Virus record (IMG/VR): IMGVR_UViG_3300025289_000025
Span: 26,297-90,296 of that record
DNA from: a virus
Direction: 5' to 3' (one strand)
DNA length: 64,000 nucleotides
The translations under genes and the position numbers were made by a program. Under the pieces are notes generated by a model, which worked only from the letters and a program-made list of their open reading frames with translations, made no database searches and was not told where the DNA came from. Below are positions 3,501 to 45,934 of the stretch, in pieces (the stretch's first letter is position 1; every line of letters begins with the position of its first letter).

Positions 3501-6500
3501 ATGGCTACCGAGCGTATCTATCCTGCAAGTGATGTAACAACCAACTGGAATGGATGGTCTGCCCCTCCGCATTGGTCGCGTGTAGACGATGCTTATGGAT
3601 CGGAAACGGAGGCGGATGGAGGGCTTGCCGGGGACAACAACTCCGTAGAAGAATTCACCATGGCGAATGTATCCGTCATGGGGGCATCAGATACCGCAAC
3701 CGGGATAGGTATTTATATATGGTCGAAAAGCGAAAGCAGCACAGAGTCGATAGATGTTCAATATTCCATCGACAACGGGTCTAACTGGTCCTCCGTTGTA
3801 AACGTAGTAGTTAATCAAACGAGTTACGCCTATGGAATAGCGTCGTGGTCCGGCCTGTCTCTGACTCAATCGCAGATCAACGCGATGAACATACGGCTTA
3901 CATGCCCGAATGAGAATGTCGATTGGGTCTATACCTCCGCAGTTTCGGTTCTGGTGACTTATACGGCGGGCGGAACTAATTTTACCAGAGAATTAGCAAA
4001 TAGTTTGGGGATCTCTGATGTTCTATATAGACAGTTAGTACGGAGATATGAAAATATAGAATCCATCGGAGTTCCAGACTCTATCCTTTGTTCCCTGTCC
4101 TTTATTCGTCCGATTGGGGATAGTTTTGGATTAGTAGACTCCAGAGATATTGTAAAGTCAATGATTCGTAGGCCCACGGAAGTGTTGGAATTGGGAGATT
4201 ACGAAAGAATTATTAGACAAATAGTCAGATACATATCTGATAGTGAGAATATCTCAGATTCTTCTATTCTTGTTCATCTTATCAATCGTTATCTTTCTGA
4301 TTCATTAGGTTTGGCAGATTCTAATAATCGTTATATCACCCTTCGTAAATATCTTACTGATACTGTTGGAATAACGGATGCTGAAATAGTTATTAATTCC
4401 ATCGTTCGTTATCTTTCTGATATTTTGGGATTATCTGATATACAAAGTAAAATGATTGGCAAGATAGTTGCAGAATCAACTGGTATTATGGATACTTTGA
4501 GTAAGATTGGTAATATGGTTAGAGTTCTATCTGAATCAGAGGGAATGACAGATTCAATAAACCGTATTCTTCAGAAAGTTGCCCAACTATCTGATTCTAT
4601 TGGAATAGTAGATTATCAATTAATAATTAAATCCCTATCTCGAATTATTTCTGAAAATGAAGAAATAGGCGATTCTTCCCTTCGGTATTTAAACATGATT
4701 CGTGACTCTTTTGATTCTATGGGGATTTCCGATCATTCTATTACAGTAATTGCATTAATTAGGACCCTATCAGAATCTTTGGGAATAACTGATTCAGAAG
4801 TTTGGGCACTCCTTCGTAGTAGGGTTATTTCTGATACCACTAGTGCATTTGATTTTCAAGCAAAAACTATTGGTAAGGTTCTTTCAGATATTTTGGGGGT
4901 TTCTGATTCTATAGCAAGGGCCTCTTTAGCAAGCAGATATATTTCAGATATTCTTGGATTATCTGATGTTGTTTCTAGGATATTGGTAAAACGGCTGACT
5001 CAACCAGATGTTATTGGGTTAGTAGATGTATTTTATGAAACAGAAATAAATCTATTTGTTGCAATAGTGGCAGAGGCGATTGGTATTACTGACGCCCAAG
5101 TTAAATCCTCTACTTTGGGAAGAATAGTTTCTGATGCTTTTAATCTTTATGATGTATCTTTCCGAACGGTTTTGTATAGTCGTGCTTTCTTGGAAATAGA
5201 GGGAATTAGTGATTATAGCTCTAGATTAATGGAGGCGGTGCGTTATTTATCTGATTCTGGAGGAACGTCTGATTATTTGAATAGAGTAATGGGGCACATT
5301 CGGTTGGAGTCTGATTCTATAGCAATGACAGATAATTTAACACATATTAAGTCCCTTTTAAAAAATATATCTGATTCTATTGGACTTACTGATTCCCAAT
5401 CAAATATTATTCATTTGGTCCGTGCGGTTTATGATTCTTTGACTATAAACGATACGTTGGATCGTCATATATCTTTTGTTCGTTCCTATTCAGAATCGAT
5501 TGAAATTTTAGACATTTTCTATGGTATAGAAGTTAATTTGCTAGTTTCTGAAATTTCAGATGTTATTGGATTAGTAGACGATAAATCTCAAGCCTTCATT
5601 AAAACTATATTGATTAGTAATTTATTAGGAATTTCTGATTCTAACATTAAATCTTTTTTAAAACAAATTTCCGATACAATGGGATTGTCAGATACCATTC
5701 AACGTCATTTGACGATTCAACGAATTCTTTTTGATACTGAGGGTCTTTCGGATACTCTGATCAAATCAATTGCTAAGACTCTATCGGAAGCATTGGGAAT
5801 AATTGATTCGACTGTTCGTTATCGTACTCTTCAGAAAATTCTTTCTGAATCTCTGGATTTGTCAGATTCTCAGTATAGGATAATTGTAAAAATATTTTCC
5901 TTATATGAAAATTTAGGGTTGACAGATGCAAGAGTAAAATTATTGGCTAAGACGATTGGGGAATCCTTAAATTTAAATGATTACCAGTTACGATCCTTAA
6001 GTTTCATTAGAGCTATGATGGAAGGATTAGAATTATCCGATTCCTATGTAAGAGCATTGAAGGTAAAAAGAGAGTCATTGGAAGAAGTTGGTCTTGTAGA
6101 TATAAATATTCAATATCTTGCATTAATTGTATCTAGAATTCTGTCTGAGCCTGTTGGAATTACGGATTCCTACCAAGCCATATTTTATGTTGCTAGGATC
6201 ATAGCCGAATCCTTAGATTTGTCTGACGAGCAACTTAGGATTTTGGATGTTAACAGAATAGTATCAGAATCTTTATCTTTTGTAGACATAGCTCCTAGAA
6301 CGGTTAATTTGACTAGAATGTCCGTAGACTCTGTTGCCTTAGCCGATTCTCTATTATCTTTGGTTATGAAATTACGTTATTTATCAGAATCCTTCGAATT
6401 GACGGATTCTCAATATTATCAGTTGGAAATGATAAGGGAATTGGCAGAAACGGAGGGGATTTCTGATTTCCTTCTTAGATCTATTTCTGTTAATAGATTT

Positions 6501-25342: not shown

Positions 25343-28300
25343 TCATACTAAAAAATCCCAGGATTGGTTAATTTTTCCTATTTTTATATCAGATATTAAT
25401 GGGACAATGATCCAAGGATTGTTCGCTAAAACATCTTTAGTCATCACTTTTTTAGTGGTTTCTATTACATGATCTATTTCGTTTGGGTTAGTATCTATAA
25501 TTATAGAATCATGGATTTGTCCTATTAATTTAGATTTCCATTTTTCTTCTTTTGATATTTCATTTATTTTAATTATTGATTCTAAAAGTACGTGGAATGC
25601 TGTGCCTTGAATTACGGAATTTATAATTTCATTTTTGGTTAAAAATCCCCTTCGTCGGAAGCCATGCATCATTTCAACATATCCGTTTTGTTGGTATGAT
25701 TTTATTAGTCCATCTTGAAATTTTTTAATCCCACGATATTTTAGCCAAAATTCTCGCTCTGCTTTTTGAACTCTCATTATAGGTAGATCATGGTATCCTC
25801 TGCTAATTAAATCTGCATGAATATTTTTATAATAACTGCCGTAAAAGAGGGCAAAAACCATGGCGTTCTTGGCATCGAATCTCATTATTTTTGCATCGAA
25901 TCCCTTTAGTTGTAAAAAATCTGCCCACTCTTGATGAATATCCGCTCCATCTATACGTTCTTTCATTAATACAGGGTCTTTGGAATAGCAAGCTAAAATG
26001 CCGACTTCATGCCCCCCATAATCAGCCTCAGCTAATAGGTTTCCTGGAGAGGGAATTATTCCATTTCTTACCATAGTCATAGATTCTTTATCTCTTTTGG
26101 GAATGTTTTGCATATTGGGGGAGTCCATAGAACTTCTGCCTGTTCTTACTAAATGTAAATTAGAATTAGGATGTAATTTTTTATTGACTTGTAAACCTAA
26201 AATTCCATCAATATAAGTAGTCTTCAATTTATCCAATTTTCTTTTTTTAACCAAATCTTTTGCGAAGGGTATATCCAAACTTTCCACAACGTCTTTATCT
26301 ACGGAGTCCCCACCACCCTCCGTTTTTTTGATGGATTTTACTCCTAAGAATTCAAACAAAAGTTTTTTCATATCATCAGAAGAAGTTAATTTTATTTCTC
26401 TTCCTGTTTTAGATTTAAATAATTTTGCTTCTGGAGAGCGAAGTAATTGTTTTTCTAGGAAATCTAGTCTTTTTTCTAATTTTATTTGGGTATCTTGATA
26501 ATATTCTACGTTTACTGAGATCCCTTCCATTTCCATATCAGAAAAAGCAAGAACTCCTTTATGAAATAAATCGTAGGCTTTAGAAGCGGCGAGGGATTCC
26601 TTATTCCCCTTATCCATGAAATCCCATTGCCGTTCCGCCAATCTCATCGTGAAATAAGCATCTAATCCGTTATATTTCAATAGCTCATTTAATGGGCACT
26701 TCTGCATAGTATTAAATTTAGTTCCCGGAAGGGCCTTTTTGAATTTAGAAATATCCCCTCCGTATTCATACCCCCAATTTATAAACGTTTGAAAATCTAG
26801 CCCTGTAAATCCTGCTCGTTCATCTACGATATGAGAACAAACCATTGTATCCCAATACCATCCTTTTGGCTCTTCTCCAATTATGATTTTACTCCACGGA
26901 TGCTCCATCTGAATATTCTGGGCTACTTTTAATATTTCTGGGTCGGAGAGTACCCCTCGCCATGCCTTATTCAACGCTTCTAACTGTCCTGATTGCCACG
27001 CTCCGGGGTAGGAGTAGGGCCAGGCATAGGCTATGTCCTCCCCGTAGATAGCGACAGCCGTAGACACAATAGAGTGGCCGGGATAGTAGGGACGGAGGCC
27101 AGTAGTTTCATAATCAAATGCTATCGTTGGTTTTTGTTCTTTAATCGTTTTGAGAATATCTAAAATTTCATCTGTATTGGTTAGACATTTTATCTTTTGG
27201 GAATAATCAATTTCTTCTATTTCTGGTAAATTTGAAGTTATTTGTTCCATTGCCCATTGGAGGTCTAATTTGAAAATGTTCTCTGCGTCAGGATTTCTGA
27301 TAACGAAAGAGGGATGGTATAGTGGGATAACCCAAGCCTTCGTTTGAACATCAGGAATGCAAAGTTTTCTCCATCTCCCAATAGATAAATTTGTTGAAAT
27401 AGGTTGAGTCCTATTCATGAAAAACGCCTCTACTGCTTTTGCGCCAAAAAGTAGTATATACTTCGGTTGAAATTGTTGTATCGCTGCTCGCCAGTTAGGT
27501 TCGCAAGCTTTGATTTCCCGTGTAGTCGGAGTTCGGTTGCTCCCCTTCTCGTTGGTTGGCCGGCAATTATGATGAATTACTCTATTTGCTATAAAACTAT
27601 TGTCCTCTTCTACTTCTATGCAAGTTAAAGACATTCTTTTTCCTATAGGAATTTTTTCTATAGAAACTATTTCTACTTCGGTGAATTGATATTCTTGATT
27701 ATGATTCTTTATTAATCTTTCTATTGGGGAAATAGGATTTTTAGAGGAAACTCGGAGTAATTCATAATTATAATTTTTAGCTAGTATGTTTTTTTTCGTT
27801 TGATCATTTTTAACTGATTTTTGTCCGTTCCTATCCGGATTATCTACTTCCACTAGCAAATTATACTTTGGCAAAAAGAAATCATAATTTAATGTTTCAA
27901 TGGCAAATTGAGAAATGAATTGTATTTTTTTATCGGATAAATAATTTGCTAAAGACCCCTCTCCAAATCCTATTGTGATAGGAGATATACTAGATAATTT
28001 ATTTTCAGATTCTTTAATTTTGGCCCATTTTATTCTGCCTTTTAGCTTAGCTTCCTTAGTTACTTTCCCCCCCGTCATCTTCCCCCAAACGCCCAGTTTA
28101 GCCGATCTTCTTACTTTTTCATGGGCTTTCTCCCTAAGTTTTTCTCCATATTTATCCTCTAAGTATTTACTTTCGCAGATTAAAGAACAAATATTTTCCC
28201 CATAAGAATTAGTTTTAAAAAAAATACCCCCACAAATTATACATTTTTCTCCTATGGCTATTATTCTATCTCCTTTATTTAATTGACGTGCATAAACCCA

Positions 28301-28867
28301 ATTTTCTTTATTGTCTATTTTAGATAAAAATCTATGTGAAGAGGTAACAACAAATTCTTTCAAACTTCTATTTTTATAAGGAGAATTGATCCTCCCCACT
28401 TTAATTTTGTAAACTTCTTCAGTAATTCTTTTAAGGTGCTTGGGAAGATCTTGAATTCTAGATATTACCTTTCTAAATCTTCCTTTATGGGTTAATACTA
28501 AATCCCCCACCTTAACTTTAGATACAGGTTTATACCCATCTATAGTAAATATAGGAACTTGATGATAAACAAAACACGCTACGGCATTAGTTTTTCTGAA
28601 ATCTCTATCTAGATCGTACCCCATAATCCTAAAGCATTTTCTAAGAAAATGGCCAGTTTCTCCTATAAATTGATTGTTCAGTTGATCTTCTCGCTCACCA
28701 CTAGCTTCCCCCAATATGAAGGTTTTAAGTTTTCCTTCACCAGTGGGGGGAATATTTGGGGATAGGGTACGATTTTTCAGCCCACATGCGTCACAACCTA
28801 CGGCCCCTCGGGGGGTTTTTGGTTGGGCTGCTTTAGCAGGAGTTGGTATATCAAAGAACCCTCGCAT
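25343..28867 (-). CDS. Uracil-DNA glycosylase (family 4-like) - 3'-5' exonuclease - DNA polymerase I fusion, with intein
   Basis: 1174 residues, 837 after removal of a 337-residue intein. Residues 1-97 plus 435-about 545 form a 4Fe-4S uracil-DNA glycosylase-like domain: CDACGL, GEASGEREDQ, then C-R-P, K-A-C-E-P-N-W and PLYHPSF, with four Cys for a cluster. A proofreading exonuclease follows (IAFDYETTGL, VAQNIQMEH, YNGLDAYFTMRLA) and a family A polymerase (VRTGRSSMDSPNMQNIPKR, AEADYGGHEVG motif A, DAKNAMVFALFYGSYY motif B). Motif C reads IGQIHDSIIID, with Ser where cellular family A enzymes have Glu. No 5'-3' exonuclease domain; that is a separate gene at 18771-19637. The replicative polymerase of the phage. 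Confidence 0.9.
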   Translation of the reverse strand: MRGFFDIPTPAKAAQPKTPRGAVGCDACGLKNRTLSPNIPPTGEGKLKTFILGEASGEREDQLNNQFIGETGHFLRKCFRIMGYDLDRDFRKTNAVACFVYHQVPIFTIDGYKPVSKVKVGDLVLTHKGRFRKVISRIQDLPKHLKRITEEVYKIKVGRINSPYKNRSLKEFVVTSSHRFLSKIDNKENWVYARQLNKGDRIIAIGEKCIICGGIFFKTNSYGENICSLICESKYLEDKYGEKLREKAHEKVRRSAKLGVWGKMTGGKVTKEAKLKGRIKWAKIKESENKLSSISPITIGFGEGSLANYLSDKKIQFISQFAIETLNYDFFLPKYNLLVEVDNPDRNGQKSVKNDQTKKNILAKNYNYELLRVSSKNPISPIERLIKNHNQEYQFTEVEIVSIEKIPIGKRMSLTCIEVEEDNSFIANRVIHHNCRPTNEKGSNRTPTTREIKACEPNWRAAIQQFQPKYILLFGAKAVEAFFMNRTQPISTNLSIGRWRKLCIPDVQTKAWVIPLYHPSFVIRNPDAENIFKLDLQWAMEQITSNLPEIEEIDYSQKIKCLTNTDEILDILKTIKEQKPTIAFDYETTGLRPYYPGHSIVSTAVAIYGEDIAYAWPYSYPGAWQSGQLEALNKAWRGVLSDPEILKVAQNIQMEHPWSKIIIGEEPKGWYWDTMVCSHIVDERAGFTGLDFQTFINWGYEYGGDISKFKKALPGTKFNTMQKCPLNELLKYNGLDAYFTMRLAERQWDFMDKGNKESLAASKAYDLFHKGVLAFSDMEMEGISVNVEYYQDTQIKLEKRLDFLEKQLLRSPEAKLFKSKTGREIKLTSSDDMKKLLFEFLGVKSIKKTEGGGDSVDKDVVESLDIPFAKDLVKKRKLDKLKTTYIDGILGLQVNKKLHPNSNLHLVRTGRSSMDSPNMQNIPKRDKESMTMVRNGIIPSPGNLLAEADYGGHEVGILACYSKDPVLMKERIDGADIHQEWADFLQLKGFDAKIMRFDAKNAMVFALFYGSYYKNIHADLISRGYHDLPIMRVQKAEREFWLKYRGIKKFQDGLIKSYQQNGYVEMMHGFRRRGFLTKNEIINSVIQGTAFHVLLESIIKINEISKEEKWKSKLIGQIHDSIIIDTNPNEIDHVIETTKKVMTKDVLANNPWIIVPLISDIKIGKINQSWDFLV
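27566..28576 (-). other. Intein in the glycosylase domain, with EDxHD/VSR-like nuclease
   Basis: 337 residues (98-434 of the fusion). It starts with Cys (CFVYHQVPIFTIDGYKPVSK), has block A/N features (VKVGDLVLTH), block B (VVTSSHRF, T-x2-H type) and ends MSLTCIEVEEDNSFIANRV then H-H-N, followed by Cys as +1 residue. A four-Cys zinc-like patch (CIICGG, CSLIC) and a basic region precede a nuclease-like domain with YNLLVEVD and a downstream D-Q-T-K-K-N and YELLRVSS, related to the PD-(D/E)XK/VSR-type EDxHD domains free-standing at 37.7 and 44.6 kb. The site is directly before the third Fe-S Cys of the glycosylase. Confidence 0.85.
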
Positions 28868-35627: not shown

Positions 35628-36007
35628 ATCCTCGCCTCTGTAAATACTTTATTCCATAATATCGTTATAGGTATTTTCAATTTCCGTACTCCATATTGTT
35701 CTGGAAATCGGATAGCAAATTCCAACTCCCCCGATTCTTTGACTAATACAAATAAAATCATATCGGCCTCTGTTCCCTTATCAAAGTGGAATCTCCCTCT
35801 TCTTCTCTTCCATTTTCCCTTAACACTTTCTGAATGTATCCATTCTTGGCACGATTTTATTTCTATCTTTGCATCTCCCACCGTAACGTCGTATCCAGCT
35901 TTATAATCTGGTTTAATCGGAGGATCTTTGAAAAAGTCCCCCAAATATTTGAGTACTCTTTCGTCAGATTCGCTCCAGTGTCTTGAAAAGAATCCTTTAT
36001 TTTTCAC
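35624..36007 (-). CDS. PD-(D/E)XK nuclease-like protein (putative)
   Basis: 127 residues. GYDVTVGDAKIEIKSCQEW has a D...E-x-K core typical of restriction-endonuclease folds, followed by a Lys/Arg-rich patch and a DMILFVLV strand. It could be a resolvase, a restriction-like enzyme, or an endonuclease that helps neighbouring selfish elements. Overlaps the radical SAM gene by 4 bases. Confidence 0.5.
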   Translation of the reverse strand: MKNKGFFSRHWSESDERVLKYLGDFFKDPPIKPDYKAGYDVTVGDAKIEIKSCQEWIHSESVKGKWKRRRGRFHFDKGTEADMILFVLVKESGELEFAIRFPEQYGVRKLKIPITILWNKVFTEARI

Positions 36008-37704
36008 CGGACCAAATTTTCTAACATTTCTAAGCGGAAGTCAGAACTTTCAATATATCTCCAAACTATATTTCCTTCTCGATCTCTTCCATAAGGTTCA
36101 ATTCCCTGGGCCCAATCCACCTGATATGCTTGATGTCCCCCAAGATTCCACGAATTCTTTACTTCTTGCATTAAGGTTTCTGATAACCACCCCCCACGTT
36201 CCTCTACGAAAGCGTTATATTTCCCCCACGTTACTGGGTGGGGTCCGTTATCCCGAACAAACCTAGCAGCAATCATGTTGTTCCCGTAGGAGAACCCTCC
36301 ACCCAGGGGTAAGTAAACATCTGATACGGAGCAGCAGATTTCATCATTATTGATCGGGGAATTCCCGAAATCGAAGGTGGAAGTTGAAAATCCCTCGGAT
36401 TTCATCATTTTCATAAATTCTCCTAAAATCAAAGAACCCAACCACTGACTATCTGACATTAGCAAAAACATTCTACGAAAATCTATTCCTTCCATTTCCA
36501 TTTGGCGTTCAACTCCAGGGGCAGAAGCGGAGTAGCTATATGTATCAAAAGTGATATGTTTAATCCCTGCTTCCCTGACTCCCTGTATCCATTTTTGAAC
36601 ATAATAAGGATCATCGTTCACAAAGACCATGAATGGCTCGATCCTTGCGACAACCCTAACCCCTGCATCCGTAAGGGCTTTTACAGCAAGCATGCGTTTC
36701 TCAAAAGACGGGGCGCCAGGTTCCAACTTTTTATTTAGAATACCATCTGAAGATATCGCCGTCATATGAACAGCAGCACCACCTTTATTATCTGCTAGTG
36801 CCCTAACGTAATCTTCTCTTCCGATTAACGCAGACTTAGTGTTCACCATTATGGGATATGCAATATCAGATAAATATTGCATAAAATTCAAACTGATTCC
36901 TTTTTGAGCTTCGATAGGAAGAAAATCTTCAAATCGAATTCCTAGACGGATGGGAATTTGTAGACTGATTGCTTTATTTAATTCTGGGCCATCTATTTTC
37001 TTTCCCCTATATGGCATTAATTTATCCATCTCTGCTCGAAAGTATTCTGGACGGCAGTGGCGTATTCCAATTTCCTTGGGGTTATCAAAGAATGAAGTAT
37101 AAAGAGAACTGCGAAAAGAGTCCGCAAAACAATTATGTACAAGAATTCCCTCTGCAAAATAATTATTATTAGGTTGACACTCAAAATTATAGACTATTTT
37201 TTTACCACTAGTTTTTGCTCTAGATATAGATTCAATTCTACTCCATTCCCATTTAGAAACACTATTAGATTTAGAATAATATGGGGATATCATCATATCA
37301 TGCATATTTAATTTATTTGCTTCTATCCAACCCCTAGTAGTAAATATTGTATGCTCTGGGGTTAACTTTAGAATATTATTTTTAGTTTTGATAACTATTA
37401 AGTCTTCGGTAGCTCTGCTCATTATTTTTTGAACGATTGATTTTTCTTCTATCAATAAACTATTATAAGTATTTAGAGAAACAACCTCATCTCCCTCTTT
37501 AATTTTTTCTATATTCTTTTTTATACCATTCCACATTTGTATTTTGGTTTTAGGAGGTAAACAATATTTGCATGCGTAGCTGCAATTATGAACTAATTGG
37601 GAAGATGCAAAGAAATTGCTATTTCTATCTACAGTTAAATCAAATACAGCAGTAGGTTTACTAATTTTCCGTAGACTTTTTATTTTCTTAAATCTAGTTT
37701 GCAT
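36004..37704 (-). CDS. SplB-like radical SAM protein A, C-terminal part: IntC + [4Fe-4S] motif interrupted by a second intein
   Basis: 566 residues with four parts. Residues 1-40 are the C-terminal half of a split intein (FDLTVDRNSN...QLVHN). Residues 41-47 are extein, CSYACKY. Residues 48-191 are a continuous 144-residue intein. From residue 192 (CFADSFRSS) the extein resumes to the end with SplB/radical SAM features (LEPGAPSFEKRMLAVKAL, DAGVRVVARIEPF). Joined, the catalytic motif becomes C-S-Y-A-C-K-Y-C, the C-x3-C-x2-C site for the SAM-binding cluster. Together with 91 residues from the upstream ORF the mature protein has about 473 residues. SplB proteins are radical SAM enzymes related to spore photoproduct lyase; the substrate here is unknown. 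Activity needs one trans-splice and one cis-splice. Confidence 0.85.
   Translation of the reverse strand: MQTRFKKIKSLRKISKPTAVFDLTVDRNSNFFASSQLVHNCSYACKYCLPPKTKIQMWNGIKKNIEKIKEGDEVVSLNTYNSLLIEEKSIVQKIMSRATEDLIVIKTKNNILKLTPEHTIFTTRGWIEANKLNMHDMMISPYYSKSNSVSKWEWSRIESISRAKTSGKKIVYNFECQPNNNYFAEGILVHNCFADSFRSSLYTSFFDNPKEIGIRHCRPEYFRAEMDKLMPYRGKKIDGPELNKAISLQIPIRLGIRFEDFLPIEAQKGISLNFMQYLSDIAYPIMVNTKSALIGREDYVRALADNKGGAAVHMTAISSDGILNKKLEPGAPSFEKRMLAVKALTDAGVRVVARIEPFMVFVNDDPYYVQKWIQGVREAGIKHITFDTYSYSASAPGVERQMEMEGIDFRRMFLLMSDSQWLGSLILGEFMKMMKSEGFSTSTFDFGNSPINNDEICCSVSDVYLPLGGGFSYGNNMIAARFVRDNGPHPVTWGKYNAFVEERGGWLSETLMQEVKNSWNLGGHQAYQVDWAQGIEPYGRDREGNIVWRYIESSDFRLEMLENLVR
37132..37563 (-). other. Continuous mini-intein before the third cluster Cys of radical SAM protein A
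   Basis: 144 residues. It starts with Cys (CLPPKTKIQMWNG), block A has IKEGDEVVSL, block B LTPEHTIFTTRGW, block F VYNFECQPNNNYF and it ends ILVHN followed by Cys. No endonuclease domain. Its site matches, residue for residue, the split intein of radical SAM protein B, and the two are similar where they can be aligned (KWEWSRIESI against KWVEISKV). Confidence 0.85.
37585..37704 (-). other. Split intein A, C-terminal half (IntC)
   Basis: 40 residues: blocks F and G (AVFDLTVDRNSNFFASSQLV then H-N), followed by extein Cys, the first cluster Cys. It partners the 92-residue IntN at 38839-39117. Confidence 0.85.
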
Positions 37705-38839
37705 TTATTAAAATCTCCCTGATTTTTCCAATGTAAATAGTTTTAGGGGAAGAAACTGTTTTAAGTTCGTCAATGGCTTTTAAAATAGTTTTATCCACAT
37801 CTTTAGCAAAAATAGAATTAGTGTCTATTCTTATGACTGATATTTGAAATAATTTATCTACATAATCATCTCTTTTACGATCTCTTTTTATCCCCTCTTC
37901 TGAATAATGGTCACTATAACCATCGTATTCTATAATTATTTTAAAATCCGGCAAATAAGCATCGGCAAGAATATAAGAAAAATCTAATTGTCCCAATTGA
38001 AAGAAGCACTCCGGTTCGTATTTAAATCCCATAGAATCTAAATATTCATAAAGTTTCCTTTGCCCTTCGGATATCCCCCCGTTTTTCTTTATGGTTTCTT
38101 TTGCTTTAGCCCAAACTAGTCTAGCAGTTTCTGGATCCTTCATGGGATTGTTATTAGATAACATTCTATTCTTAGCATCCAAACGTTCTCTTCCTTTATT
38201 AGGATGTACATAACCATCTAAAGCACAAGTTCTTTTATAAGACTCGATCATTCTATTTCTTATCTCCAGAACCTTCATGGGGTTATCTTCCTTCATTCTA
38301 GCAGAAGCTATATCCTTGGCTTCCTCAGACATTTTGCTAGGTTTTCCTAATAAATCAGGCCTTAATCTACCTTTATTTGGGTGAACAAAATTAGGATCAT
38401 TTAATGTTTTCATTAGAGATTCATGACTTTTATTTTTAATCTCTTCATCTTTCATAGGATTATTTTCTTTCATTCTAACAGAGGCATTTTCTTTCATTTT
38501 CTTTGTCCAAATTGCCCCCGGTTTTCCCGTCCGGGATTTTGATATCCTTTCCCTAGTCTGTTCTGAACAAATTCTTCTTCTATTAGCATCTCCTATTTTT
38601 TTCTTAACTTCTTCTCTGCAGGCAGGATTAGTATCTCCGAACATACTATCATATTTTCCTTGCTTCCATTGTTCTTTCTTTATTTCAGATTGAATTTGTC
38701 GGGATTCTTCTGATATTCCATTTCTGATAGCTTCTTTTTCTTTTTCTGTCCTTGGAATACCTTTATTCCAAGCTGCTTGCACCCCTGTTTTCCCTTTATT
38801 CCAAGGAATGCAGCCTTTGGCTGGTCCTCGTTTACCCAT
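37694..38839 (-). CDS. Free-standing EDxHD-type homing endonuclease inside split intein A
   Basis: 381 residues between the two halves of split intein A. The first 250 residues are NUMOD3-like DNA-binding repeats (MKENNPMKDEEIKNKSHES, HPNKGR, NNNPMKDPETA). The last 120 are a VSR/PD-(D/E)XK-like nuclease: DAYLPDFKIIIEYDGYSDH, K-R-D-R-K-R-D-D, ISVIRI. The family is known from fractured phage genes with split inteins. It overlaps the IntN ORF by one base and the IntC ORF by 11, so the three ORFs are translated in series. It is related to the gene at 44557-45537. Confidence 0.8.
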   Translation of the reverse strand: MGKRGPAKGCIPWNKGKTGVQAAWNKGIPRTEKEKEAIRNGISEESRQIQSEIKKEQWKQGKYDSMFGDTNPACREEVKKKIGDANRRRICSEQTRERISKSRTGKPGAIWTKKMKENASVRMKENNPMKDEEIKNKSHESLMKTLNDPNFVHPNKGRLRPDLLGKPSKMSEEAKDIASARMKEDNPMKVLEIRNRMIESYKRTCALDGYVHPNKGRERLDAKNRMLSNNNPMKDPETARLVWAKAKETIKKNGGISEGQRKLYEYLDSMGFKYEPECFFQLGQLDFSYILADAYLPDFKIIIEYDGYSDHYSEEGIKRDRKRDDYVDKLFQISVIRIDTNSIFAKDVDKTILKAIDELKTVSSPKTIYIGKIREILINAN

Positions 38840-39117
38840 TAATATATCTCCAAAAGTAAGTCGTCTTCATTAAGTTGCCCGGCTTCTACCCACCCTCGTT
38901 TGGTAAAAATTTGGTGATCTTCCGTAACAACTAGAAGTCCTTTTTCAGTTTCTATTTCTACTAAATTAGTTTTTTCTGAAGAAGATGATAACAAAACTTG
39001 GGTAAACTCTACTTTTTTGGTCGATTCGTTATATGAGGCTATCTCATCCCCCACCTTTATATCTTCAATTTTTTTGAATCCTGTTTTAGTAGTAATCAAT
39101 TGACCTTTTGCTATGCA
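38839..39117 (-). other. Split intein A, N-terminal half (IntN)
   Basis: 92 residues with Cys1 and blocks A and B intact. It is separated from its IntC by the homing endonuclease gene. Similar to IntN B at 45527-45808 (both have RGWVEAG followed by a short acidic/hydrophobic end). Confidence 0.85.
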
Positions 39118-39390
39118 GTATAGTGCATCATAAACATCTGCATTAAGGGGCATGGGGCAATGATTTTTTCTTAGGCTCACTTCAAGGAAAGAAGTAATTT
39201 CATCTTTATTGAGCAATCTTTGTTTTATTTCAAATTTTTCACTATCGAATGAAAATTCCTTGTATCCAATTTTTCTACCCTTTTCTTTAACTAGTCCTTT
39301 ATGTTTTTCTAGAAAGTCCAGCATTCCTCTTCTTGGGATGATGTTCTTCACCAGTTCACGCAACTCCCAATATCCGTTAAATAATTTCAT
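38839..39390 (-). CDS. SplB-like radical SAM protein A, N-terminal part fused to IntN
   Basis: 183 residues. Residues 1-91 are the N-extein (MKLFNGYWELRELVKNI...PLNADVYDALY), containing the start of the radical SAM protein. Residues 92-183 are an N-terminal intein half: CIAKGQLITTKTGFKKIEDI (block A), GLLVVTEDHQIFTKRGW (block B, T-x2-H), ending DDLLLEIY and a stop. Splicing with the IntC at 37585-37704 would join DALY to CSYACKY, placing the junction immediately before the first Cys of the cluster motif. Confidence 0.85.
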   Translation of the reverse strand: MKLFNGYWELRELVKNIIPRRGMLDFLEKHKGLVKEKGRKIGYKEFSFDSEKFEIKQRLLNKDEITSFLEVSLRKNHCPMPLNADVYDALYCIAKGQLITTKTGFKKIEDIKVGDEIASYNESTKKVEFTQVLLSSSSEKTNLVEIETEKGLLVVTEDHQIFTKRGWVEAGQLNEDDLLLEIY

Positions 39391-39685
39391 TTATTTTAAT
39401 ATCTCCTATTTCTTCTTCCAATTCATTTTCATCAAATTCGTCAATATCAATTTCTATTTTATACCAATATCTGAAAAATGCTTTTTTCAATTTTCTTTTA
39501 AATGCTAACGCCTCTAACTTAGTATCGAATAACCATTCCATATCCCTATACATAATTCCTTCGTCATCATATGTCCCCGCTGCCCACCAATGTTTACTAT
39601 CTTCGGCCATAGCCAAATCGCTTACAAATTTCCATTCTTCCATATTAGAAACTTCAATATTTAAAGTCAATTCGTATTTGGTCAA
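39377..39685 (-). CDS. Small acidic hypothetical protein
   Basis: 102 residues, with an Asp/Glu-rich C-terminus (IDIDEFDENELEEEIGDI) and an aromatic centre (DSKHWWAAGTYDDEG). It overlaps the radical SAM N-half by 14 bases and the GIY-YIG gene by 4. Unknown function. Confidence 0.5.
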   Translation of the reverse strand: MTKYELTLNIEVSNMEEWKFVSDLAMAEDSKHWWAAGTYDDEGIMYRDMEWLFDTKLEALAFKRKLKKAFFRYWYKIEIDIDEFDENELEEEIGDIKINEII

Positions 39686-40437
39686 TGATTCGCTCTTTTC
39701 TTAGCTGCTATTCTCATCTTTATTTTAGTTTCTTCAGATTTTGGTTTTCCTTTACCGGATAAACTCATTTTTTTCTTAGTCTCCTCAGAAAGAGGTTTTC
39801 CTTTTAAAGCTAAACTTATTTTTTCTTTATGTTCTTTAGAAAGATGTTTTCCTTTATTAGCTAAACTTAATTTTCTTTTTAACTCCTCCGAAAGAATATG
39901 TTTTCCTTTATTGGCCAAACCTATTTTTGCTTTAGTTTCTTCAGAAGGATGTTTTCCTATATGTATTAAACTCATTCTTTTTCTAGTTTCTTCTGTATGG
40001 TGTTTCCCAAATAAAGGGTGATTTTCTCCTTTATTAGCTAAACTTATTTTCCCCCTCGTTTCTTCTGAATTTATTTTTCCATTATGAGCTAAACTTATTT
40101 TTTTCTTAGTTTTTTCTGTATGCTTATACCCCAAAGTAGAACTAGCATATCTACAAATATCATATCCATATATTCGATCATATGATTTATAAAAGTCTTT
40201 CCAATATTGTTCCCTAGTAGTTAATTGATCTAAATATTTAATTATTTCTATTACCATAAATACAAAAGATTCTTCCCCATATTTATAATAAGCTGCTTGT
40301 ATATGTTTAGTATGTTTTCCCTTACGAAGTTCCGTCAAATGTTGATTCCATCTGTTATACACGTCTTTAGAAGATCCTATATATTTCTTTCCGTTGATTC
40401 TATTAAGAATCATATATACCCCAGATATTCTTTTCAT
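39682..40437 (-). CDS. GIY-YIG homing endonuclease with NUMOD3 repeats (intact)
   Basis: 251 residues. GIY-YIG core: SGVYMILNRINGKKYIGSSK (GVY...YIG), followed by catalytic Arg in VYNRWNQHL and a later REQYWKDFYKSY. Residues 105-245 hold seven or eight NUMOD3-type units (SEETKAKIGLANKGKH and variants) that bind DNA along the minor groove. A free-standing selfish gene placed between two small hypothetical genes. It overlaps the gene downstream by 4 bases. Confidence 0.85.
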   Translation of the reverse strand: MKRISGVYMILNRINGKKYIGSSKDVYNRWNQHLTELRKGKHTKHIQAAYYKYGEESFVFMVIEIIKYLDQLTTREQYWKDFYKSYDRIYGYDICRYASSTLGYKHTEKTKKKISLAHNGKINSEETRGKISLANKGENHPLFGKHHTEETRKRMSLIHIGKHPSEETKAKIGLANKGKHILSEELKRKLSLANKGKHLSKEHKEKISLALKGKPLSEETKKKMSLSGKGKPKSEETKIKMRIAAKKRANH

Positions 40438-41126: not shown

Positions 41127-43394
41127 TTATCTCCCTAACGTATCTTTAAAATATTTTATTGTATATTGCAATCCTTCTTTAAAATTTACTTTTGGCCTCC
41201 ATTTTAATATTTCTTTGGCCAAAGATATATCTGGCTTTCTCCTAGTAGGATCATCTAATGGCAAAGATTTGAATTCTAATTTAGAATCAGATTCGGTTAA
41301 ATTTACTATGAGATTTGCTACGTCCACTATTTTCAATTCTTCTGGATTCCCCAAATTAATAGGGCCCACATATTTATCCTGTTCCATCATAGATATCAAA
41401 CCATTCACAGTATCACTTATATAGCAAAAAGATCGAGTTTGTTTTCCATTTCCATAAATGGTTATAGGTTTACTCGTTAATGCTTGAACTATAAAATTAG
41501 ATACTACCCTTCCATCGTTTATTTTCATATTGGGGCCATAAGTATTATGGCAAGATATTAAATCTCCTCCAATAAAATTTTCAAAATTTTTCACGGAGAA
41601 ATCATAAACATTCTCTTCTATTAAATCAAATTTTTTTATATCTTTGATATGCGCCCATTGAATATCGCTATTCTTTTTTCTTTGTAATTTTTGAACTACG
41701 GTATCTAATCTAGATATATCATAATGGCTTAATCCTTGCACCGTTATTAAGTATCCTTTATAAAGTTTGGGATTATCTTTACTGCATGTAGTATAATAGC
41801 AACAGGTACTCCCAATTATCCCAAATTTTAATAAAATTAAATTTAAATTGTCTATCAAATTTATGCTAGATGAACTAAAAATTAATTTATTACCAGTAGT
41901 TTTAGCATCGTGGTTTCCATCCCCTTCCCAAAATCCTAAAAGGAACCATTTAAGTTGATCTTTGGGTAATTGTATAATCCAATCTGGAATAATTTTTTCT
42001 AGTTGTTTTTTAATTCCAAATTCAAAATATTTAGTTACCAATTCAAAAATGATTTTACTACGAATACAAATATGAGGTTTTGTATCTGAGGAATAAATTT
42101 TTGTTTCTAATTCAAATAAATTATAAATTATTTGATTTAATTTTTGAAGGTATTTCAAATCAGAATAAAAATGTAATTGATAATCCCCCCCATTATTATT
42201 TACTAAACTTCCTTCTGCAACATAAAAACCTAAAAACCACAAAAATTCCTCCATAATATTAATATTATTTTTAATAATATGCTTAGAATCATCTAGAACG
42301 ATATAATCATTGGAGTTTAGTATAATATTATTACTTTTGAGAAAACTGGATTTTATTCTTTTGACTCTTTTGAAATTATTTATAGTTGATGGTAATCCAA
42401 CACCACTTTGTTTACATTTATTTATAAAATATTTATTGTTAATAATCCTTTCTAAATCATCATCATTAGATACATAAAAATTAAAATCTTGTTTTAGAAT
42501 ATTTGATATTTTAAATGGCATTAATGGAATATCTATCCATTTTATTTGATTTGGTATAGCAATAATATCACCAATTACCAAATCTTTGACAAATTTTTCT
42601 TGAATTTTCTGATTTTTATTTAAAATGAAAACTCCATGATCCTCCGTCAATTTTATTTGTTTTCCCCAAGTTAAAAATAATTCGTAGCCGTTTTTTGTCA
42701 CTTTATGTTTATGGATTCCACTAATAGGGGAAAGAACATATCGGTTATCTTTACCAAAGCAAGGAACTATTATATTTTCTATCTCATTTTTTATATCGTC
42801 ATAGCAATCTATAAATTTTTTATACTTTAAAATACCATTTTTATAGTAAATAACTTTTTGGTCCCCCGTAAGACTATTGAATATTCTAACCACCCGGATG
42901 GGAACATTATTTTGTCTGTAGTAATCGAAAAATAACGTCTCTGCACATCTTTTCCCTTCATCATAGCATGATCTAATTCCGATTGGATTTACATTGCCCC
43001 AATATTCCTCCGTTTGAGGATGTTCTTGGGGATTCCCGTATACTTCTGATGTGGATGCTTGCAATATTTTAGCTTTAGTCCTCTTGGCTAATCCTAGCAT
43101 ATTTATAGCCCCGTGAACTATCGTCTTAGTGGTTTGAACGGGGTCCTTTTGGTAATAAATTGGGGATGCCGGAGCCGCTAGATTATATATCTCGTCTACT
43201 TCAATATATAGGGGAAAGGTTACATCATGACGTAATAATTCAAAATTAGGATTAGTCATTAATGGAATAATATTTTTTTTGGTAGAAGAAAAAAAATTGT
43301 CTAAGCAAATAACTTCATTTCTCAATTCCAATAATTTTTTACATAGGTGAGATCCAATAAAACCGGCTCCCCCCGTTACTAATATTCTTTTCAA
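41127..43394 (-). CDS. UDP-glucuronate decarboxylase-like (UDP-xylose synthase) SDR with LAGLIDADG intein
   Basis: 755 residues, 311 after intein removal, the usual length for this short-chain dehydrogenase family. The N-extein (1-173) has the Rossmann [31 protein letters not shown] and the catalytic Y-x3-K in SCYDEGKR. The C-extein (618-755) has [17 protein letters not shown] and RSFCYISD. Joined, I-F-N/T-Y-G-P restores the family block. The reaction is UDP-glucuronate to UDP-xylose (NAD-dependent). It overlaps radical SAM B by ATGA, so both are likely made together. It may feed the glycosyltransferase at 8643-11612 (inference). Confidence 0.88.
41544..42875 (-). other. LAGLIDADG intein in the UDP-glucuronate decarboxylase
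   Basis: 444 residues starting with Ser ([11 protein letters not shown]), block B-like [10 protein letters not shown], two LAGLIDADG motifs ([12 protein letters not shown] and [14 protein letters not shown]), block [16 protein letters not shown] and the end SCHN, followed by Thr as +1 residue. A full-size, apparently intact homing intein. It sits in a catalytic-core block (RIFN/TYGP) of the host protein. Confidence 0.9.
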
Positions 43395-44572
43395 AATAGA
43401 AGTCCTTTCTTATCTTCAACGGAGCCTTCTTCTTTTCTTCCATAAATATTCATACCATTTTTATCTTTATCTAAAACTTTAATTTCTGGGCTATCATTCA
43501 AAGAGAAATATTGTCCCTTTCCATTCCAAATTTCTTTCATTCGATCATAAGCCTCAGGCTGTCGAAAGGTTATTGCTTCCATATCATCCCAACAAACTAA
43601 CCCCTTTTCCATTATTATTTTACAAGCATGTTGAAAAGTAAATTCGTAGGGAACGAATAGCCCATCAACTCCACAACAACTTTCACAAGAATTACTAAAT
43701 GGAAAATTTACAAAATCAGGGGAGGACGCAGGGACGTTTTTATTTTTCAAAATTTCTCTAAATTGTTTTCCTACGGGAGTCCAATTTTCATCTAGATTCT
43801 TTTCCAAAAGTTTGACGTAATTATATCCTCTGCTTTCGAATTCTTTTTGAGCTATTTTGTAATTTGACGTTCGATAATTGAAAAAACTAACATGTTTAGC
43901 TCCAGTACGAGATGCCATCTCAGCGTACCCTTCCAACATGTCTTCTTTTGAATTGATTCCCACTAGGATTGGTTCCCAACGCACAGCCGTCCAAATACCC
44001 ATGTCGTTTAGCGTCTTAACTAGGGACCATCTCATAGATGGGGGAGGTAATCCCGGCTCCAATTTATAATTCAGAGTGTCACTTCCCCCCATGATAGAAA
44101 TGATAATAGCTACGTTTATATCTTTCAGAAGGTCCAAATATTTTTTTAATCCGACGTAATGGCTTTTCGTTTCGATGATCATGGGTACTTTATATTCTTT
44201 GAATAATTTGAGAACTGGGACAACTACGTTATCCCTCATATCTTCTAAACAGAATGTTTCTGCTTTGCTTCCCATATTAAAAGGGAGTCCTCTACGAAGA
44301 CATTGAATATTCCAATTATCGTAATATTTATCTGATCCAAAGGCTTTATCAAATAATTGTTTAAAGTCATCTGGATTACAGGCCCTTACTAAATCTCTTG
44401 TCCACCCCGTATAATAATGGTTATATAGTCCTGCCTCCATTTCTCTACAAAAACAATTATGAACTAGTACCCCGTCTGCAAAATAATTGGGGTTATCTTC
44501 CACTTCTATATTAAATACTTGAATAGTTTCTTCTTCAGGCATAACTTTTGATATTTCTACCCATTTAAGCAT
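43391..44572 (-). CDS. SplB-like radical SAM protein B, C-terminal part with IntC
   Basis: 393 residues. Residues 1-39 are an IntC ([19 protein letters not shown] then H-N). The extein begins at Cys 40 ([15 protein letters not shown]) and continues with radical SAM features like those of protein A ([31 protein letters not shown]), plus a late CESCCG. Aligned from the third cluster Cys, it is a paralogue of protein A. Spliced with the 42-residue N-extein at 45809-45934 it gives a 396-residue protein. ATGA overlap with the decarboxylase gene. Confidence 0.85.
44456..44572 (-). other. Split intein B, C-terminal half (IntC)
   Basis: 39 residues with blocks F and G, ending V-L-V-H-N before extein Cys. 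It starts inside the end of the homing endonuclease gene (16-base overlap). Closely similar to the C-terminal end of the mini-intein at 37132-37563. Confidence 0.85.
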
Positions 44573-45537
44573 TGCAATTTCTCCACGATTATACTTTCTA
44601 AATTTGGGAGGTCTTCTGGCAATATTCGGATAGTTTTAACCCCATAACAAAATTTCAGTAATCGGTCTCTTATAGAATCTAATTTTGGTCCTTTCCCATC
44701 TCGATGAGTATAAAACCCGTCATATTCCCAAGCTATGTTGTTTATCGGGTCGTAGGCATCTACGAAAATATAAGAATACGGTTCTCCTTTGAAAATAAAT
44801 TGTTGTTCGGGGAAAAATTTTATTTTTAAATTATTCAAAGCGGAATATAATGCTTTTTGTCCCTTTGATATATGGCCGTTAGTATTTAAAATAGCGAATA
44901 TATTTTTTAAGTGTTTAGCAAAGTTTTCAGGTTGAGTATGGGACCAATGTCGTTCCCCAGAAGATTTTGCAGCTATAATAGGATCTTTCATTGGATTATT
45001 ATTAGTCATTCTTTCTATAGACCACTCGTTTCTCTTCCCCGTATTAGGATGAACGTATCCTTCTTGAGCATAGGTTTTTCTATGACTAACTAAGGATTTT
45101 GCTAAAATTTTAGGATCTTTCATAGGATTTGTTCTTTTAAAGAAATTATTAGAATTATGGCAAGGATTTTTATCTGAAGATAGTTCTATTTTTCTACAGC
45201 TCATACAAATTTTGCTCCCCGAACATTTTTTAGAACCGCAAATACAAATAACTGATTCTAAAGATCCTTCTGGGTATTTTTTCTTTTTTAATTTCATCGG
45301 GTTTTGATCGGTGGTTAATAAAATATCCCAACATTTTCTACAATGTTTATGATCCTTAAAAATTTCCTCCCCACAAACAACGCAATGGGATACTATTTTA
45401 GGCTTAATTTTAGGGGTAGGTCTACATCTAGGGTCTTTTATAGATACTAATTTTTTCCAACAATCCCAACATCTTTTAGAAGTGCCCCTCCAAACTATTT
45501 TACCACAATCTATGCAAGTAGGGATTTCATTTTTCAT
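44557..45537 (-). CDS. Free-standing EDxHD-type homing endonuclease inside split intein B, with N-terminal zinc fingers
   Basis: 326 residues. The N-terminal 110 residues have three zinc-type modules (CIDCGK...CWDCWK, CVVCGEE...CRKCWD, CICGSKKCSG...CMSCRK). The middle has NUMOD3-like HPNTGKRNEWSIE and NNNPMKDPIIAA. The nuclease domain has YIFVDAYDPINNIAWEYDGF, T-H and D-S-I-R-D-R, ending KTIRI. It is a diverged paralogue of the gene at 37694-38839 but with the added zinc modules. It overlaps the IntN ORF by 11 bases and the IntC ORF by 16. Confidence 0.8.
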   Translation of the reverse strand: MKNEIPTCIDCGKIVWRGTSKRCWDCWKKLVSIKDPRCRPTPKIKPKIVSHCVVCGEEIFKDHKHCRKCWDILLTTDQNPMKLKKKKYPEGSLESVICICGSKKCSGSKICMSCRKIELSSDKNPCHNSNNFFKRTNPMKDPKILAKSLVSHRKTYAQEGYVHPNTGKRNEWSIERMTNNNPMKDPIIAAKSSGERHWSHTQPENFAKHLKNIFAILNTNGHISKGQKALYSALNNLKIKFFPEQQFIFKGEPYSYIFVDAYDPINNIAWEYDGFYTHRDGKGPKLDSIRDRLLKFCYGVKTIRILPEDLPNLESIIVEKLQCLNG

Positions 45538-45808
45538 AAATTAATACTTTATCCCCCTTTATTAATTCCCCTGCTTCCACCCACCCCCGATCAGTAAATA
45601 CTTTATGATTTTTAGTTATTTTCAATAATTTATTTCCTATTTTTATTTTGATAATTTCTGAACTCCTATTCATAGTATGTTTAATTAATTTAGATTCTAC
45701 TTCAAATGTTTTTTCATTATAAGTTAATACTTTATCCCCTACTTTCAACTCTTCTATAGGTTTAGAAGTACCATTTGATAAGTTAATTGGTGTATCTCCT
45801 GATAGACA
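45527..45808 (-). other. Split intein B, N-terminal half (IntN)
   Basis: 93 residues with Cys1 and blocks A and B. It occupies the same position, before the third cluster Cys, as the continuous mini-intein of protein A. Confidence 0.83.
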
Positions 45809-45934
45809 CATCCAATTGCAACCTGCACTGCAACCAGCAAAGCAATCCCCCCCGAATGCTTGAGGACAACAAAGACTATCTGAACGAAATCCTACGATGG
45901 AACCAAATTTTAATTCTCTAATATCTTTTTTCAA
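45527..45934 (-). CDS. SplB-like radical SAM protein B, N-terminal part fused to IntN
   Basis: 135 residues. Extein residues 1-42 (MKKDIRELKFGSIVGFRSDS...) contain many Cys, ending CFAGCSAGCNWM. Residues 43-135 are an IntN: CLSGDTPINLSNGTSKPIEE (block A), LLKITKNHKVFTDRGWVEAG (block B), ending VLIYEK and a stop. After splicing the motif is C-S-A-G-C-N-W-M-C-F-C: C-x3-C-x3-C rather than the standard C-x3-C-x2-C. The codons were checked on the DNA. Confidence 0.82.
   Translation of the reverse strand: MKKDIRELKFGSIVGFRSDSLCCPQAFGGDCFAGCSAGCNWMCLSGDTPINLSNGTSKPIEELKVGDKVLTYNEKTFEVESKLIKHTMNRSSEIIKIKIGNKLLKITKNHKVFTDRGWVEAGELIKGDKVLIYEK

Follow-up and report, generated by a model that had tools for sequence, protein, structure and literature searches.

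Two different inteins lie seven residues apart within the iron-sulphur cluster motif of a viral radical S-adenosylmethionine (SAM) gene, here termed P1. The gene occupies the minus strand (39390-36004) of a 64,000-nucleotide stretch of viral DNA, positions 26,297 to 90,296 of IMG/VR record IMGVR_UViG_3300025289_000025, which is referred to as the window. Its motif CSYACKYC is interrupted at site a, before Cys1 of CX3CX2C, and at site b, before Cys3; the site names are those adopted here and the two sites are 21 bp apart. This is a real, recurring pile-up of mobile elements at a single active site. We consider it likely, at a probability of roughly 0.85, that P1 is a two-site radical SAM gene invaded sequentially by selfish, self-splicing inteins, intein b leaving in cis before intein a splices in trans. 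The gene is laid out as follows.

39118-39390, minus strand: N-extein of P1, 91 residues, ending NADVYDALY, aligned with intein-free homologues
38839-39117, minus strand: N-half of split intein a, 92 residues, with its Cys1 at 39117, plus stop codon, from Pfam and NCBIfam intein regions
37694-38839, minus strand: open reading frame (ORF) of a homing endonuclease (HEN), 381 residues, between the intein a halves, its start overlapping the upstream stop (TAATG)
37585-37704, minus strand: C-half of split intein a, 40 residues, ending LVHN, with AGGGAG 5' of its ATG
37564-37584, minus strand: extein linker CSYACKY, 7 residues, carrying Cys1 and Cys2 of CX3CX2C
37132-37563, minus strand: intein b, a continuous HEN-less mini-intein of 144 residues, ending LVHN, directly before Cys3
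36004-37131, minus strand: C-extein of P1, 375 residues, beginning at Cys3 (CFADSF), plus stop codon (codons end at 36007)

The N-half ORF (39390-38839, minus strand) thus comprises the 91-residue N-extein and the 92-residue N-intein, and the C-half ORF (37704-36004, minus strand) the C-intein of a, CSYACKY, intein b and the C-extein in that order. The initial annotation had placed a split intein directly before the first Cys of CSYACKYC and a continuous 144-residue intein directly before the third, with only the seven extein residues CSYACKY between them, and the exact coordinates, including 37563-37132 for intein b and 37584-37564 for the linker, bear this out. Once joined, the exteins read CSYACKYCF, which is the radical SAM CX3CX2C motif. 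Each of the three cistrons has its own start signal: AGGAG 5' of the start of the first, GGAG before the overlapping ATG of the HEN gene, and the AGGGAG of the C-half, which lies inside the HEN gene near its 3' end. Such signals agree with separate translation of the halves and speak against an accidental break of the frame. The P1 region is 100% identical in four other IMG/VR contigs, three of which span both halves while one is partial, and is therefore not an assembly slip of the window contig.

Pfam and NCBIfam detected intein N and C regions in both the N-half and the C-half ORFs. Intein b scored 68.7 bits against PF14890 (cut-off 35.8) and matched the solved mini-intein 7cfv by sequence at 4.7e-10. 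Its predicted fold was matched by Foldseek to the mini-inteins 7cfv, 4o1r and 1mi8 at E of about 1e-6, with a mean predicted local distance difference test score (pLDDT) of only 68.6 for the precursor model used, which is too weak for judging sterics between the two inteins. Class 1 features are present in intein b, namely an N-terminal Cys (CLPPKT...), the block B TxxH (TPEH), a C-terminal His-Asn and a +1 Cys (ILVHN/C, the slash here and below marking a junction). When 13 related inteins were aligned, all were found to keep Cys1, TxxH in block B and HN at the end, and Cys followed in 13/13. The junction of intein b, Y/CF, resembles the AEY/CFN context of DnaE inteins. Judged from codon comparison with the intein of its relative L021 (loci are designated by L numbers), intein b is under purifying selection, the ratio of nonsynonymous to synonymous change (dN/dS) being about 0.16 for the intein and 0.08 for both exteins, values which are approximate since synonymous sites are near saturation.

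The arrangement at site a is that of a natural split intein, with the N and C halves (IntN and IntC) on separate ORFs and the HEN ORF between. The same split layout stands at the same codon in the diverged phages L104/L035 and L099. The net charges of IntN and IntC are -6 and +6, as expected for a split intein assembling electrostatically, whereas the continuous intein b has no such partition. That the two P1 inteins differ from each other, as first annotated, was upheld by an alignment and a tree of related inteins; the two are 37% identical.

The nature of the host protein was examined with L045, an intact P1 homologue. Its model (pLDDT 88.3) gave spore photoproduct lyase as the best match in the PDB, E 3e-6, with further enzymes of the radical SAM superfamily next, identity being about 12%. 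Residues C88, C92 and C95 of L045 (CX3CX2C) are invariant in 25 homologues, and NCBIfam places the P1 protein nearest to the PA0069/Rv2578c type. A PDB sequence search with the P1 extein gave nothing useful. P1 could not be named a spore photoproduct lyase by sequence, given the 12% identity and the lack of any TIGR04070 match to the window protein at E 0.1.

A profile of the P1 protein found 75 viral loci and three contigs from metagenome-assembled genomes, possibly phage; once duplicates were merged and the window included, 63 distinct P1 genes were left. Both sites are empty in 52, site a alone is occupied in 4 (L035/L104, L099, L119 and L101), site b alone in 5 (L021/L082, L093, L102, L105 and L117), and both are occupied in 2. 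The initial annotation had named intein-free homologues without the assumed junctions as grounds for rejection, but the empty sites match these junctions exactly, reading through as TYDAVRCPYGCRYCFADSFR in L038 and VWDGLRCGYGCKYCYADSFR in L041. The cellular PA0069-type protein L043 is also uninterrupted at the same site, NPYRGCEHGCIYCFAR. Scanning viral contigs for further site-a inteins gave no new P1 alleles. A scan of genome contigs with a first alignment found no matches and with a second alignment found the three metagenomic contigs, and no INPHARED phage record matched P1 or the paralogue P2 described below.

The closest relative is L021/L082, in which P1 is 82% identical, site a is empty (YDALS/CSYQCKY) and site b carries an intein 72% identical to intein b of the window. 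Chance is excluded by L020 and L021, with an empty site a and an occupied site b at the same codons, and by about 50 homologues in which both sites are empty and CX3CX2C runs on unbroken. P1 is frame-shifted in L020:8826-10684 (3300025030_000080), possibly by an assembly or sequencing error, and intact in L021:1929-3773 (3300009285_004725).

The second gene with both sites occupied is represented by four contigs, L106, L107, L108 and L118, which are identical over the region compared. Here site a holds a continuous HEN-less mini-intein of 136 residues followed by the linker CPFACIY, and site b holds a split intein in which the HEN, the C-half and the C-extein form a single ORF whose ATG overlaps the stop of the N-half. 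This case is independent of that in the window and its roles are reversed. Both double genes have exactly one intein split and HEN-bearing and the other a continuous mini-intein, a pattern that, with two cases, is suggestive only.

The intein tree divides five site-a inteins from eight site-b inteins by a single branch with 98/98 support. The tree of the exteins places the window together with L082, which lacks a and has b (Shimodaira-Hasegawa-like approximate likelihood ratio test, SH-aLRT, 100), and then with L045, which is empty at both sites (99); occupied genes are scattered over the tree. Since the nearest relative has b without a and the next has neither, the most parsimonious order is b before a, and the trees suggest gain of b first and then of a as the simplest history in the window. 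The double state would have arisen by sequential invasion, with b the older and a arriving later, most simply via homing into an allele that had b and lacked a.

Translation of the intein a halves as separate cistrons around a free-standing HEN would leave two polypeptides to be joined. Needing only its own chain, intein b is most likely the first to leave, by cis-splicing of the C-half polypeptide. The oppositely charged halves of intein a would then associate and trans-splice the 91-residue N-extein onto CSYACKYCFAD..., giving a predicted enzyme of 473 residues containing DALYCSYACKYCFAD. Cys1 and Cys3, which serve inteins a and b as +1 nucleophiles, are also ligands of the cluster; by intein chemistry, its site cannot therefore be completed before both inteins have been excised. 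A cyclic heptapeptide might also be released off-pathway, given a free N-terminal Cys on the linker and a thioester at the b junction. Our preferred view is that each intein is a selfish element splicing on its own, and the existence of a-only and b-only alleles suggests that neither needs the other.

The HEN of P1, which may be of the Vsr/EDxHD type, matched the homing endonuclease family phrog_9084 at 4e-5 and MTES_1575 only weakly, at 0.054. It is 54% identical to the HEN of L035 over 111 residues, and a homologue in L101 matches DUF559 at 1e-9. Placement of the HEN varies among the relatives. It is free-standing at site a in the window, L099 and L104, fused to the N-half at site a in L101 (L101:3656-4897), and fused with the C-half of split intein b in L107, L102 and L105, where HEN, C-half and C-extein share a single ORF (L107:4281-6125, L102:4236-6119 and L105:4281-6125).

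The same phage carries a second radical SAM gene, P2 (45934-43391), in which site b is occupied by a further split intein whose HEN is related to that of P1.

45530-45934, minus strand: P2 N-extein, 42 residues (45934-45809), and N-half of the split intein, 93 residues (45808-45530)
44557-45537, minus strand: HEN ORF between the P2 split intein halves
43391-44572, minus strand: C-half of the split intein, 39 residues (44572-44456), and C-extein from the third Cys (CFCREM)

The P1 and P2 HENs are 35% identical over 174 residues. Spliced P2 (from 45934-45527 and 44572-43391) would read CSAGCNWM/CFCREM (CX3CX3C), a motif with one residue more than the CX3CX2C seen in the intein-free P2 genes of L020, L033, L034 and L037. 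The charges of the P2 split intein halves are +4/-6, the reverse polarity to intein a of P1, a difference that may prevent cross-splicing between the two systems. Intein a of P1 and the P2 intein, with opposite polarity in one phage, are a candidate pair of orthogonal split-intein tools.

Several further elements lie near these genes. Between P2 and P1 a nucleotide-sugar epimerase/dehydratase gene (41127-43394) carries a LAGLIDADG intein and is uninterrupted in L020, so that with the two of P1 and that of P2 there are four inteins within about 10 kb of the window. A GIY-YIG/NUMOD3 endonuclease gene (39682-40437, from Pfam) lies upstream of P1 in the window, and an ORF that looks GIY-YIG-like by eye lies downstream of P1 in relatives (L020:10685-11389 and L021:3777-4481). 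A third radical SAM paralogue, of the CPLPLSIDSYWTCEPNCxHCYSRR type, is found near P1 in L101, L107, L115 and others. Elsewhere in the window, 27566-27739 within a 1174-residue ORF (25343-28867) matches weakly the C-terminal part of an intein domain. An unrelated SPASM radical SAM protein, L142 (about 4001-4430), has an intein before its third Cys (CNAKCPW/C...VHN/CFYV); this position has therefore been struck in several radical SAM families.

Some observations weigh against our reading of P1. The Pfam Radical_SAM scores, 22-26 bits (one of them 25.5), stay under the curated cut-off, 29.5; motif, NCBIfam and the modelled fold nevertheless agree that P1 is a radical SAM protein. Intein a may have been lost in L082 rather than gained in the window lineage. 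Splicing and ligation are deduced from sequence, as is the splice order, which the sequence results do not fix. It is this reliance on deduction that leaves some room for one or both inteins being dead or merely cleaving and the gene a decaying remnant, a view to which the odd CX3CX3C motif of spliced P2 also lends something. However, all of the P1 ORFs are open and have start signals, the catalytic residues are kept, and the dN/dS values of 0.08-0.16 for intein b and both exteins are not those of decay, which we regard as quite improbable. There is hardly any likelihood that the split and the extra ORF stem from an intron in the RNA, from programmed frameshifting or from faulty assembly. Phage genes often hold introns with HEN genes, but there was no Rfam match, on which ground an RNA intron was rejected; the HEN lies between an N-terminal and a C-terminal intein region, and the diverged phages share the split layout. 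An assembly artefact was rejected on the identical sequence in the other IMG/VR records. It is equally implausible that one intein gave rise to the pair by local tandem duplication. The two are alike in being Hint domains, in size and in the stated 37% identity, but each is closer to the same-site inteins of other phages and single alleles of both kinds exist, and the 98/98 branch of the intein tree rules it out.

Functional coupling of the two inteins deserves more attention, even if it appears unlikely. They might form an ordered AND gate on Fe-S assembly, or one might have to leave before the other splices, the arrangement being kept because it is useful, for example in redox or metal sensing. 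The nucleophiles of both are cluster ligands, the pairing arose twice, and the catalytic residues are intact in both. Yet single-occupied alleles exist for each site, so that as a rule each intein can do without its partner; occupancy of a and b is not significantly associated (2/6 vs 5/57, Fisher one-sided p = 0.13), and the scattered distribution looks like selfish gain and loss. It is also conceivable, although rather doubtful, that the inteins are one linked unit, in which double occupancy at 21 bp would be stable only with exactly one HEN mobilising both, and [4Fe-4S] assembly would follow only after cis and then trans splicing via the cluster-ligand nucleophiles, as such a gate would require.

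Intein sites tend to cluster in active sites, and split inteins with a HEN between the halves, radical SAM inteins and multi-intein genes are already known. Fractured-gene split inteins with an intervening HEN were reportedly described by Dassa et al. in 2009 (cited in PMC7090010). P1 resembles these in having an N-half, a free-standing HEN ORF, perhaps of the Vsr/EDxHD type, and a C-half on one strand of a phage-like contig. It differs in its radical SAM host gene, in the second intein seven residues downstream, and in having relatives with the HEN fused to the N-half (L101) or the C-half (L102, L105 and L107). NCBIfam NF038136, the intein-containing Rv2578c family of radical SAM proteins, has its intein at site b as in P1: its positions 69-75 correspond to the seven residues CSYACKY/CPFACIY, and at position 76 it meets the Cys1 that opens intein b. 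This correspondence was read from profile coordinates, across several alignments, rather than from a mycobacterial sequence itself. Unlike phage P1 it is a cellular family with one intein and no first-Cys intein indicated, its cut-off of 700 bits is far above what the phage proteins score, and a search with it placed no control genome above that cut-off.

Among multi-intein genes, Haloferax MCM-a and MCM-d are two non-allelic neighbouring inteins in one gene for which all occupancy states are natural (PMC10643990). Unlike those of P1 they are continuous LAGLIDADG inteins and their sites are described only as close (PMC10643990), whereas the P1 sites are 21 bp apart, one of the inteins there is split and a HEN is kept by just one of the pair. 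In the archaeal MCM inteins, homing was hindered when both neighbouring sites had an active HEN (PMC10643990), and the one-HEN pattern of the double P1 genes bears on the question raised there. DnaB of Mycobacterium smegmatis, like P1, contains two distinct inteins, DnaBi1 and DnaBi2, of which one has no HEN and sits at an active-site motif while the other has a HEN, but they lie in separate motifs, the P-loop and H4 (PMC6195587). The P1 alleles form a natural 2x2 set with which it can be tested whether neighbouring inteins need or hinder each other's splicing and whether one HEN becomes dispensable by intein hitch-hiking, a question from PMC10643990. Given that the splicing nucleophiles are future Fe-S ligands, the system also offers a natural way of testing whether splicing and the assembly of the metal site are coupled. 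The open-access papers searched describe no inteins separated by only seven residues, nor an intein pair that, like this one, flanks seven residues of one metal-binding motif and has arisen at least twice with the roles of the two sites reversed.
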